The notes under the pieces: model-generated
Told to the model about the DNA's origin: nothing
The model's input: only the letters and a program-made list of their open reading frames with translations
Database searches by the model: none
Shown here: positions 6,421 to 45,967 of the stretch, piece after piece
Layout: each line of letters opens with the position of its first letter
How positions within the stretch are numbered: the first letter of the stretch is position 1
Made by a program: the position numbers and the translations under genes
Assembly (NCBI RefSeq): GCF_000165465.1
Contig: NC_017455.1
Span: forward strand, 868,001 to 932,000
Length of the DNA stretch: 64,000 bases
Direction: 5' to 3'
Origin: Halanaerobium praevalens DSM 2228
GTDB lineage: Bacteria; Bacillota; Halanaerobiia; Halanaerobiales; Halanaerobiaceae

Positions 6421-8577
6421 CTGGAGGTTATTACATCAGAAGAGGCTGGATTTTGTTTTGGCGTTGAAAGAGCCTTAGATATGGTTTTGGAAGCTGCTAA
6501 AAAAAATGATGCTTTAAATGTTTATACATTAGGCCCACTGATTCATAATCCACAGGTAGTTGAAAGATTAGAAAAAAAGAATGTAAAAGTAGCCTCTTCA
6601 CTTGCCGAAATTGATTCTGGAATAGTTATAATTCGTTCTCATGGAGTGGCACCAGAAGTTTTAGCAAAGGCAAGAGCGAAAAAATTAAAAGTTATAGATG
6701 CCACCTGTCCCTATGTTAAAAATGCTCAAAAATATGCCAAAAGGCTTGTTGATGAAGGTTATCAAACCTTTATTTATGGTGATGAAGATCATCCTGAAGT
6801 TCAAGGTATTTATGGGGCAAGTGATAAAAAAGCATCTATAATTGGAGAAAAAGAAGATTTGAAGTCAATTGAGCTCAAGGCTAAAGTTGGTTTAGTAGCT
6901 CAAACAACTAAATCTCCTGAGTCTTTTCGCGAAATTATAGATTTAATAGCAACTAAAGTCAAAGAATTAAAAGTTTTTAACACTATTTGTAATACTACAG
7001 ATGTACGTCAATCCTCAGCTAAAAAATTAGCTGAAGATGTAGATATAATGTTTGTAATTGGGGGTCATAATAGTGCTAATACTACTAGACTGGCAGAAAT
7101 ATGTACAGTCACAAATACCCCTACTTATCATATAGAAACAGCCGCTGAAATAAAAAAAGAGTGGTTGTCTGAAAAAAATAAAGTTGGAATTACAGCTGGA
7201 GCATCAACTCCAGACTGGTTAATAAGGGAGGTTGTTCAGTTAATGAATGAAGAAAACAAAGAAGTAAATGTTGAGTCAACTGAAAACGAAGAGGAAAAAG
7301 AACAACAAGTGGTAGAGGAGGTAGAAGAAACAGTAACAGAAACTACAGAAGAAGATGAAGTTACTAACAGCGAAGAAGCTGAATTTAAATATAGCGATAA
7401 TGATATTGCTGATTTAAGCAAAGGTCAGAAAGTGACAGGTACTGTAGTTGAAATCAATGAAAATGGTGTTTATGTAGATGTTAATTATAAAACAGATGGA
7501 TTTATTCCATTACGCCATTTAAGTCATCGTACTGTAGAAGATGCAAATGATATTGTAAGTATGGATGAAGAAATTGAAGTTGTAATCTTGACTTTAGAAG
7601 ATGAAGAAGGTAATATGGTTTTATCTAAAAAACAAGCTGAATATGAAAAAGCTTGGGAAAAAATTGAAGAAGCTTATAATAATGAAGAAATTATTGAAGC
7701 TGAAGTTACTAAAGAAGTTAAAGGTGGTTTAGTTGTAGATGTTGGAGTAAGAGGATTTATTCCTGCTTCACATGTAGCAATTGGCTATGTTGATGACTTA
7801 AAAGATTATGTTGGAGAAAGTCTTCGTCTGAAAGTAATTGAAGTTGAAAGAGATAACAATAATGTAGTTCTTTCACATAAAAAAGTTTTAGAAAAAGAAA
7901 GAGCTGCTAAAAAAGAAGAAACTTTAGCTTCACTGGAAGAGGGTCAAACAGTAGAAGGTACTGTAACAAAATTAGTTGATTTTGGTGCCTTTATTGATCT
8001 TGGTGGAATTGAAGGTTTACTTCATATTTCAGAAATGTCATGGGGCAGAATTGAAAGCCCAGCTGAAGTTCTTACTGAAGGTGAAAAAGTAGAAGTTAAA
8101 GTACTTGGAGTTAATAAAGAAGAAGAAAGAATTTCTTTAGGATTAAAACAACTCTTAGCTGATCCTTGGGAAGAATTTGCTGAAAAGCATTATGAAGGAG
8201 AAGTTATTGAAGGTAAAATAACAAAATTAGTTGATTTTGGTGCCTTTATGGAAGTTGAGAAGGGAATTGAAGGATTAATTCATATTTCTCAATTATCACA
8301 CCGTCATGTTAAAACTACTGATGAAGTAGTTAGTGTTGGTGATGTAAAAGAAGCTAAAATTATTAATATTGATGCAGATCAAGAAAGAGTAGGTTTAAGC
8401 TTAAAAGAATTAGAAGAAAAGCCTGAGCCTAAAAAAGAATCCAGCAACAAATCTCAAAGCTCAAATAGAAGCAATAGAAGTAGTAGTAGATCTAATAAAA
8501 ATAATGATAACTCATCATCTAGTGGAGGAGCTACTATTAGAGAAATTGTTGGAGACATATTTGACCAGGGTGAATAA
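6421..8577 (+). CDS. ispH: IspH fused to four S1 domains
   Basis: Residues 1 to about 285 are IspH, the last enzyme of the MEP isoprenoid pathway, with three Fe-S cysteines visible in GFCFGV (Cys12), ATCPYV and NTICNTTDVRQ. A Glu-rich linker follows, then four S1 RNA-binding repeats (about 331-400, 415-485, 503-577 and 590-665; the last two share LVDFGAF), then a Ser/Asn-rich tail. This fusion is known in Clostridia and relatives; the S1 part may act like ribosomal protein S1. The proposed start is CTG 6421, because AAGGAGGTG lies eight bases upstream and this matches the family N-terminus. The in-frame GTG 6412 is inside the ribosome-binding site and ATG 6379 has none; if either is used, 3 or 14 residues are added. 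Confidence 0.93.
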   Translation: MEVITSEEAGFCFGVERALDMVLEAAKKNDALNVYTLGPLIHNPQVVERLEKKNVKVASSLAEIDSGIVIIRSHGVAPEVLAKARAKKLKVIDATCPYVKNAQKYAKRLVDEGYQTFIYGDEDHPEVQGIYGASDKKASIIGEKEDLKSIELKAKVGLVAQTTKSPESFREIIDLIATKVKELKVFNTICNTTDVRQSSAKKLAEDVDIMFVIGGHNSANTTRLAEICTVTNTPTYHIETAAEIKKEWLSEKNKVGITAGASTPDWLIREVVQLMNEENKEVNVESTENEEEKEQQVVEEVEETVTETTEEDEVTNSEEAEFKYSDNDIADLSKGQKVTGTVVEINENGVYVDVNYKTDGFIPLRHLSHRTVEDANDIVSMDEEIEVVILTLEDEEGNMVLSKKQAEYEKAWEKIEEAYNNEEIIEAEVTKEVKGGLVVDVGVRGFIPASHVAIGYVDDLKDYVGESLRLKVIEVERDNNNVVLSHKKVLEKERAAKKEETLASLEEGQTVEGTVTKLVDFGAFIDLGGIEGLLHISEMSWGRIESPAEVLTEGEKVEVKVLGVNKEEERISLGLKQLLADPWEEFAEKHYEGEVIEGKITKLVDFGAFMEVEKGIEGLIHISQLSHRHVKTTDEVVSVGDVKEAKIINIDADQERVGLSLKELEEKPEPKKESSNKSQSSNRSNRSSSRSNKNNDNSSSSGGATIREIVGDIFDQGE

Positions 8578-32301: not shown

Positions 32302-32321
32302 ATTAATAACAAAATAATATT

Positions 32322-32436
32322 ATCTTCAGGGTCTGGTGAGCGAAAAAGCAATTCCAAACCGGTGGTTATAGTCCACGAGCATGAGCTGAACTGGTGTAAT
32401 TCCAGTACCGACGGTAAAGTCCGGAATAAAGAAGAT
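32322..32436 (+). promoter_or_regulatory. FMN riboswitch (RFN element)
   Basis: The conserved RFN pattern is present: the closing stem ATCTTC ... GAAGAT, GGGTCTGGTGAG, ACCGGTGGTTATAGTCCACGAGC (in part), GGTGTAATTCCAGTACCGAC and GTAAAGTCCGGA. It precedes a terminator and the riboflavin transporter gene, so FMN binding should stop transcription into ribU. Confidence 0.95.
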
Positions 32437-32448
32437 TAAAATAATTAG

Positions 32449-35953: not shown

Positions 35954-35982
35954 TTGACAAAGTGCTAATTTGTTGATATTAT
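35954..35982 (+). promoter_or_regulatory. Predicted promoter for tRNA Lys-fMet-Phe
   Basis: A perfect TTGACA (35954-35959) is 17 bases from TATTAT (35977-35982), followed by GCGTCGC near the likely transcript start, about 20 bases before the first tRNA. Confidence 0.75.
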
Positions 35983-36003: not shown

Positions 36004-36079
36004 GGGCCATTAGCTCAGTTGGTAGAGCACCTGACTTTTAATCAGGTTGTCGGAGGTTCGAATCCTCCATGGCTCACCA
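36004..36079 (+). tRNA. tRNA-Lys (TTT)
   Basis: GGGCCAT and ATGGCTC form the acceptor stem, the anticodon stem CCTGA/TCAGG encloses CTTTTAA with anticodon TTT, and the 3' CCA is encoded. Confidence 0.97.
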
Positions 36080-36093
36080 TTTATTTTTTATAG

Positions 36094-36170
36094 CGCGGGG
36101 TAGAGCAGTCCGGTAGCTCGTCAGGCTCATAATCTGGAGGTCATCGGTTCGAATCCGGTCCCCGCAACCA
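36094..36170 (+). tRNA. Initiator tRNA-fMet (CAT)
   Basis: The anticodon loop is CTCATAA. The unpaired C1-A72 end (CGCGGGG with CCCCGCA) and the A11-T24 pair in the D stem mark it as the initiator. The anticodon stem is TCAGG/TCTGG, so the pairs at 29-41, 30-40 and 31-39 are A-U, G-C and G-U instead of three G-C. CCA is encoded. Confidence 0.95.
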
Positions 36171-36198: not shown

Positions 36199-36274
36199 GG
36201 TGGGATAGCTCAGTCGGTAGAGCAGTGGATTGAAAATCCACGTGTCGACAGTTCGATTCTGTCTCCCACCACCA
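36199..36274 (+). tRNA. tRNA-Phe (GAA), copy 1
   Basis: Acceptor GGTGGGA/TCCCACC, anticodon loop TTGAAAA within GTGGA/TCCAC, encoded CCA. It is identical over its whole length to the copy at 40225. Confidence 0.97.
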
Positions 36275-36289
36275 TTTTTAAGAATATTA

Positions 36290-36320
36290 AAGCCAGGCAA
36301 ATTGCCTGGCTTCTTTTTTT
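36290..36320 (+). terminator. Terminator after tRNA Lys-fMet-Phe
   Basis: AAGCCAGGCAA and TTGCCTGGCTT are perfectly complementary around one base and are followed by a C and seven T. Confidence 0.9.
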
Positions 36321-40989: not shown

Positions 40990-41264
40990 AAATAAATAAT
41001 ATAAATGTTTTGATAGGGAAGAGTAAATTTTGCTAATTGTTAAAAGAGAATTGTGTCATTGGCTGAAAGCACATAACTAATTACTAATTGAAAACCACCC
41101 TGGAGCAGATAGAAAGAATTAAGTATTTCTATTCGGTTAAACCGTTATCTTATTAAGTGAATATTGATTTTAGTATATTTATTTTTATAGAATATTAAAA
41201 TTAGTATTAACTAGAGTGGAACCGCGCAATCCGTCGTCTCTATAATGAGATGAGGGATTTTTTT
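40990..41264 (+). promoter_or_regulatory. T-box leader for thrS, specifier ACC
   Basis: The T-box sequence AGAGTGGAACCGCG is at 41213-41226. The specifier region reads GAAAACCACCCTGGAGC, which aligns with the pheS leader (GAAGTTCACTCTGGAGC) and gives codon ACC (Thr) at 41094-41096. A terminator stem (ATCCGTCGTCTC with GAGATGAGGGAT, then T run) occupies 41229-41264. Uncharged tRNA-Thr should allow read-through into thrS. Confidence 0.93.
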
Positions 41265-43570: not shown

Positions 43571-43607
43571 TATATTTTGTTTTATATCACTCAGGAGGTG
43601 CATAAAT

Positions 43608-44123
43608 ATCGTTAAAGATTTAAGAGTTAATGATCGTATTAGATCAAGAAAAGTTCGTCTGATCGATCAAGAAGGAGAGCAAATTGGTATCAAGTCATTG
43701 GATGATGCATTGGATCGTGCCGCAGAATATGGTATGGATTTAGTAGAAGTTGCTCCACAGGCCAATCCACCTGTATGTAGAATTATGGATTATGGTAAGT
43801 ATAAGTATGAACAGGCTAAGAAAGAAAAGGAAGCCAAAAAGAACCAAAATGTAATGAATGTTAAAGAGGTGCAAATGGGTGTTAAAATTGAAGATCATGA
43901 CTTTAATGTTAAATTAAAGCAGGCCCGTAGATTCCTTAATAACAAAGATAAAGTCAAAGTTAGAATTCGCTTTAGAGGAAGAGAAATGATGCATAAAGAG
44001 TTAGGCTATGACTTAATGGATCGTTTAATTGAACAAACCAAAGATATCGGTAAAGTAGAAAGTAAGCCTAAGATGGAAGGTAGAAATATGATGATGTTTC
44101 TAACTCCAGAAAGTGATAAATAA
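43608..44123 (+). CDS. infC: Translation initiation factor IF-3 with AUC start
   Basis: IF3 keeps the 30S subunit free and checks start codons and initiator tRNA. The coding frame is clearly longer than the ATG at 43698 would allow: upstream codons encode VKDLRVNDRIRSRKVRLID, the conserved IF3 N-terminus. The only start-like codon at the right distance (nine bases) from AGGAGG (43593-43598) is ATC 43608, with no ATG, GTG or TTG available. This gives 171 residues, normal for IF3. Later marks are YGKYKYEQAKKEKEAKK, KVRIRFRGREMMHKEL and GRNMMMFLTP. Confidence 0.95.
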   Translation: MVKDLRVNDRIRSRKVRLIDQEGEQIGIKSLDDALDRAAEYGMDLVEVAPQANPPVCRIMDYGKYKYEQAKKEKEAKKNQNVMNVKEVQMGVKIEDHDFNVKLKQARRFLNNKDKVKVRIRFRGREMMHKELGYDLMDRLIEQTKDIGKVESKPKMEGRNMMMFLTPESDK

Positions 44124-45699: not shown

Positions 45700-45719
45700 T
45701 AAAAAAATAATATAATAAT

Positions 45720-45967
45720 TAAAAGCTAAGAAAGAGAGAGTAACTAAAAAAATAAATTAAAAGAGATTAACTGCAGTAGCTGAAAGTAGTTAAATTTTAG
45801 ATTTTAGTGAAGTTCACTCTGGAGCTGAAGGCTGAATTTAAGTAGGCTTTTCCGGAAGTTAAAAGCTTTCGTTAAAAAAATAAGTGATCCTATTTTTTTG
45901 ATTATAATGAATAGGGTAATCAGGGTGGTAACACGGTATCTCGTCCCTTTAGGGCGGGATTTTTTTG
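45720..45967 (+). promoter_or_regulatory. T-box leader for pheST, specifier TTC
   Basis: The specifier region GAAGTTCACTCTGGAGC gives codon TTC (Phe) at 45813-45815. A T-box-like AGGGTGGTAACACGG occurs near 45922, followed by a terminator (CGTCCC with GGGCGGG, then TTTTTTT) ending at 45967. It matches tRNA-Phe(GAA), encoded twice in this window. Confidence 0.92.

Follow-up and report, generated by a model that had tools for sequence, protein, structure and literature searches.

Initiator tRNAs that lack G:C pairs of the anticodon stem

The three consecutive G:C pairs of the initiator tRNA anticodon stem (29-41, 30-40 and 31-39; GC/GC/GC) are generally described as almost universal, and as necessary. 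Unconventional initiators are known from rhizobia and mycoplasmas, and these, reportedly described by Samhita et al. in 2012, are said to have lost the outer G:C pairs while keeping the middle one; both initiator copies of Halanaerobium praevalens likewise keep the middle pair, and the loss of the first pair is here order-wide. According to the summary in PMC10568206 of the work of Ayyub et al. (2018), mycoplasmas such as Mycoplasma pneumoniae have initiators with the pairs A29-U41, G30-C40 and G31-U39 (AU/GC/GU), and the same source, as far as that summary goes, links the AU/GC/GU stem of M. pneumoniae with co-evolution of the machinery. At these three pairs the initiator studied here is identical to that of mycoplasmas, and both keep G30-C40 and the other initiator features. 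H. praevalens differs from the mycoplasma system in its free-living, halophilic way of life and its genome of 2.3 Mb, in having a second initiator, with the stem AU/GC/GC, so that AU/GC/GU is not its only one, and in its unaltered ribosomal proteins S9 and S13 and initiation factor IF3, whereas the mycoplasmas tested have the S9 tail TKR and an altered IF3.

In Escherichia coli, the engineered 3GC and M1 (C30-G40) mutants probe the same pairs and show their role in the grip of the P site and in discrimination against CUG (PMC7949028, PMC10486304, PMC11497404); these mutants alter the middle pair, whereas the natural Halanaerobium variant retains it. A1339 and G1338 of 16S rRNA make A-minor contacts with the pairs 30-40 and 29-41, respectively, and swapping just 30-40 to C-G abolishes the discrimination against CUG (PMC11497404). 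The growth of E. coli with an AU/GC/GU initiator is reported to be substantially impaired (Samhita 2012, as summarised in PMC10568206), so that a cost is possible and the change is not necessarily neutral. In the literature covered, a search found no earlier report on initiator tRNA for this clade.

The initiator tRNA genes of H. praevalens

The window analysed here is a stretch of 64,000 nucleotides of the H. praevalens DSM 2228 chromosome (NC_017455.1, positions 868,001 to 932,000), whose features are given in Table 1 together with the other CAU tRNA genes of the genome. The tRNA-Met(CAU) of the window was called by both ARAGORN and Rfam (57.9 bits in Rfam), and its base pairs were numbered and read by hand. 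The acceptor stem (CGCGGGG/CCCCGCA) carries the C1xA72 mismatch followed by G2-C71 and C3-G70, the D stem contains A11-U24, the anticodon loop is CUCAUAA and the CCA end is templated in the gene. The anticodon stem (UCAGG/UCUGG) consists of U27-G43, C28-G42, A29-U41, G30-C40 and G31-U39. A preliminary description of this DNA had called exactly the same bases at 29-41, 30-40 and 31-39 and had found C1xA72 and A11-U24 intact, all of which was seen again on hand reading; its heading, according to which the tRNA lacks the three G:C pairs, is right for 29-41 and 31-39 but not for G30-C40, which is intact, so that two of the three pairs are gone.

The genome, a single contig of 2,309,262 bases, gave 53 tRNA matches, and the stretches containing them were then read with ARAGORN. 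Four genes have a CAU anticodon: the window initiator (locus A), an elongator Met, an Ile2-type tRNA and a second initiator (locus B). The CAU anticodon, C1xA72, G2-C71, C3-G70 and A11-U24, by which initiators are recognised, occur together in the locus A gene and in the second copy, and the GC/GC/GC stem occurs in neither. The second initiator differs from the window copy solely by C39 and is also non-standard, with A29-U41; no standard GC/GC/GC initiator is present among the four CAU tRNA genes of the genome. The preliminary description had named a second, standard initiator, serving as the main form, as one finding that would speak against its reading, and there is indeed a second copy closer to the standard form, but it still has A29-U41. 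A mis-called elongator Met or Ile2 tRNA was ruled out by comparison of the four CAU tRNAs, and a sequencing error or pseudogene by the presence of the same U39 gene in the same Lys-fMet-Phe place in independent genomes.

Table 1. Positions of the features discussed in the text (window numbering unless a stretch, L034 or L041, is named)
Feature	Position	Strand	Basis and remarks
ispH frame	6421..8577	+	719 codons including the stop, IspH part N-terminal; CUG start (6421-6423) behind AAGGAGGTG
Sigma-70-like promoter, TTGACA-17-TATTAT	35954..35982	+	11/12, extended -10; directly upstream of the Lys-fMet-Phe cluster
tRNA-Lys(UUU)	36004..36079	+	ARAGORN; 5' neighbour of fMet, synteny kept in the family
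tRNA-fMet, locus A initiator	36094..36170	+	ARAGORN, Rfam, hand reading; stem A29-U41/G30-C40/G31-U39
tRNA-Phe(GAA)	36199..36274	+	ARAGORN; 3' neighbour of fMet, synteny kept in the family
Intrinsic terminator-like hairpin and T run	36290..36312	+	End of the tRNA cluster
infC (IF3)	43608..44123	+	AUC start behind AGGAGG (43593-43598); canonical RFRGRE (R129, R131, R133)
Elongator Met	L034:1059-1135	-	ARAGORN
Second initiator, locus B	L034:1275-1351; chromosome about 1910874-1910950	-	ARAGORN; AU/GC/GC
Ile2-type CAU tRNA	L041:60-136	+	ARAGORN

At the loose threshold of the promoter scan one match was found, against a mean of 1.3 in shuffled sequences, and that one fits 11 of the 12 consensus positions. 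Framed by this promoter match and a terminator, the cluster is likely to be transcribed, which predicts expression of the U39 gene. Elsewhere in the window, an FMN riboswitch lies at 32318-32440 and T-box leaders at 41001-41244 and 45719-45951, one of them ahead of a reading frame of 643 aa.

Distribution of the altered stem

When the initiator-core pattern was run over 59 genomes of the class, every one of the 29 Halanaerobiales genomes that gave a genuine initiator match had A29-U41, and the pair was also found, outside this order, in family f6 and in some copies of family f146. Families f5 and f7, assigned to Halobacteroidales from their relationship, have G29-C41, and Halobacteroidales keep GC/GC/GC. 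Phylum-wide, AU/GC/GC or AU/GC/GU was detected in 11 of 399 genomes (nine of this class and two of family f32) and GC/GC/GU in three of the 399. On the sequences compared, A29-U41 is a trait of the clade, and U39 is the less frequent form. Family f146 (L048-L051) also has initiator genes that start with T and end in CCCCGCT-ACCA, which gives U1xU72 instead of C1xA72, with a GC/GC/GC stem; the family has C1xA72 copies with A29-U41 as well.

Initiator matches were obtained in 12 genomes of the family, in which locus A has the order Lys-fMet-Phe and locus B the order Gln-Lys-fMet-(Gly)-Met-Ser-Glu-Val-Asp. U39 is present at locus A in five of these genomes (the window genome G000, G414, G416, which is Halanaerobium polyolivorans, G417 and G252) and at locus B in none of the 12. 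A tree built from infC, rpsI and rpsM, some branches of which are weakly supported, spreads the U39 genomes over separate places, and about four gains or four losses are needed to explain their distribution. With nucleotide 39 and the divergent G252 left out of the comparison, the two copies of a genome differ at 0.27 positions on average, against 1.73 for the same locus compared between genomes, and this low divergence within genomes indicates that the initiator copies evolve in concert. Nucleotide 39 itself differs between the copies in five of the 12 genomes, in three of them as the sole difference, which suggests that either no other position tolerates change as readily or the difference here is maintained. 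In G252 (MAG Soudan_29, L352), the U39 initiator is duplicated in tandem at locus A, as genes of 75 nt with a shortened D loop. In family f3, a U39 initiator occurs in two genomes, following tRNA-Asn in one of them, alongside C39 copies elsewhere.

An exact scan with one genome per species identified 79 stretches with AU/GC/GU, and those checked with ARAGORN are tRNA genes. Most belong to Mycoplasmoides, Ureaplasma and haemoplasmas, followed by Rickettsiales, Deianiraea vastatrix, Daviesbacteria, Gracilibacteria, rumen proteobacteria, a few Bacillota and Halanaerobium. Of the genomes searched a second time, many of which are incomplete metagenome bins, most gave no initiator core other than AU/GC/GU, with a pattern that can miss divergent initiators. 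AU/GC/GU is apparently the sole initiator stem in Deianiraea, several Rickettsiales, Daviesbacteria, Gracilibacteria and one family of Bacillota (L235, L228, L246, L288, L293, L240, L245, L251, L255, L271, L247, L266). Since genomes with only AU/GC/GU occur, GC/GC/GC is the usual form but no requirement for an initiator. One contig of the gamma-proteobacterial draft Acinetobacter sp. CFCC 10889 (L300) carries an initiator-like tRNA with AU/GC/GU, possibly from contamination or a mobile element.

Initiation partners and rare start codons

All genomes of the class with a readable gene keep the S9 tail SKR, the S13 tail NARTRKG and the FRGR motif of IF3 (R131, R133), whatever the stem. In the 16S rRNA of H. 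praevalens, positions 1337-1339 are GGA, positions 966-967 are GC and the 790 loop is standard. Nine mycoplasma-group genomes with AU/GC/GU, read in the same way, served as a positive control; in all of them the S9 tail is TKR and R131 of IF3 is lost, in agreement with the co-evolution reported for M. pneumoniae (PMC10568206). In two Bacillota genomes (G454 and G457, which by their matched positions are identical to G025 and G107), both initiator genes have AU/GC/GU, yet SKR and RFRGR are kept, and therefore compensation of the mycoplasma type is not obligatory. A change of R129 to K in IF3 was considered as co-variation and discarded, given that it is found in several families but does not track the type of stem. 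In place of the usual SKR, S9 tails accompanying AU/GC/GU initiators end in PKR in Daviesbacteria (L396, L397, L399) and in GKR in rumen proteobacteria (L381, L389).

A rare start codon is how infC is classically autoregulated, an arrangement that depends on functional discrimination by IF3. Most Halanaerobiales start infC with AUC, as does H. praevalens, and Halobacteroidales with canonical initiators use AUU, a clade-wide switch between two rare starts. For ispH, most of the genomes compared, with and without the altered stem, have CUG at the corresponding site and the others UUG or AUG; CUG is kept across most Halanaerobiia (AAGGAGGTGAAGGTTCTGGAG; homologous sites L306-L335 for the window codon). 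One genome with three initiators, all GC/GC/GC (G276), has an in-frame TAA two codons upstream of the ispH CUG, so that CUG is forced as the start. The CUG start of ispH is, on this comparison, very likely real, and a rare start kept for so long may have a regulatory role.

A tRNA probably tolerated with a weaker stem

From these comparisons, the locus A tRNA is probably a working formyl-methionine initiator, the weaker stem of which would be tolerated, with no visible compensation, because the middle pair G30-C40 is kept. In the Halanaerobiales ancestor, G29-C41 changed to A29-U41 in the initiator genes; later, at the Lys-fMet-Phe locus of Halanaerobium and relatives, C39 changed to U39, or back, about four times, giving AU/GC/GU, with the second locus staying AU/GC/GC. 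Entry into the P site would persist since G30-C40, the pair that A1339 contacts and to which discrimination against CUG has been tied, is kept; A29-U41 would still present its minor groove to G1338, and G31-U39 would be a single tolerated wobble beside the loop. Normal start selection would be expected, and the C39 copy possibly bears much of the load. RNA folding, in which modifications such as pseudouridine 39 are not included, predicted hairpins of -1.3 kcal/mol for AU/GC/GU, -4.1 for AU/GC/GC and -5.6 for GC/GC/GC.

The preliminary description had drawn a parallel with mycoplasmas, had pointed to the AUC start of IF3 and a likely CUG start of ispH, and had suggested that start selection is relaxed or altered, proposing to look for co-variation in the S9 and S13 tails and in IF3. 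The parallel is sound, as AU/GC/GU is given for M. pneumoniae (PMC10568206) and was found in the nine mycoplasma-group genomes, and the two starts are real or likely. A co-adapted, relaxed initiation of the mycoplasma kind, in which the altered stem would be accompanied by changes in S9, S13 and IF3 and by a wider use of unusual starts, could then appeal to the identical stem and to the occurrence of both rare starts in the same window, but we consider it very improbable: SKR, NARTRKG, FRGR and the GGA of 16S rRNA are all canonical in H. praevalens, in a test that picks up the S9 and IF3 changes of mycoplasmas. The rare starts of infC and ispH also occur in GC/GC/GC relatives and are therefore independent of the altered stem, so that the suggestion of relaxed selection, as far as these two genes go, is unsupported.

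The presence of two copies calls for two further readings, to both of which we give little credence. The initiators might be functionally specialised, with U39 kept at locus A for a different P-site stability, timing of expression or start-codon preference; the U39 and C39 forms of Halanaerobium would then be deliberately different, separated at one nucleotide against gene conversion, and their behaviour in the P site, and hence the start codons or conditions they prefer, would differ. The confinement of U39 to locus A in five of the 12 genomes despite homogenised copies, its recurrence on the tree, the tandem duplicate in G252 and the location of the loci in different tRNA clusters, each with its own promoter context, would fit such a division, which nevertheless seems unlikely, as seven of the 12 relatives lack U39, which is therefore not essential, as a C to T change is easy in a genome of 30% G+C and G-U is the mildest change of a stem, and as the counts are small and non-independent. 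Equally doubtful is that the U39 copy is slightly decayed and near-redundant, contributing little beside an AU/GC/GC copy that does the work: Halanaerobium always has a second copy nearer to the standard form and the U39 hairpin is predicted to be weaker, but G000, G414 and G417 show no decay at any other position, the gene has a strong promoter match and a terminator, and AU/GC/GU can work alone, since no other initiator stem was found in mycoplasmas, Deianiraea and others.

The initiator of H. praevalens is thus unusual but of a known kind, and what it adds is a free-living order that lacks one G:C pair throughout, with some species lacking two in one copy, and in which S9, S13 and IF3 are unchanged. 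Together with the several unrelated lineages in which AU/GC/GU is the sole initiator stem found, this supports a reduced rule that requires no pair but the middle one, G30-C40, and the three pairs seem more dispensable than the usual rule says. Natural pairs of initiators that are one base apart in one cell also offer a clean experiment.
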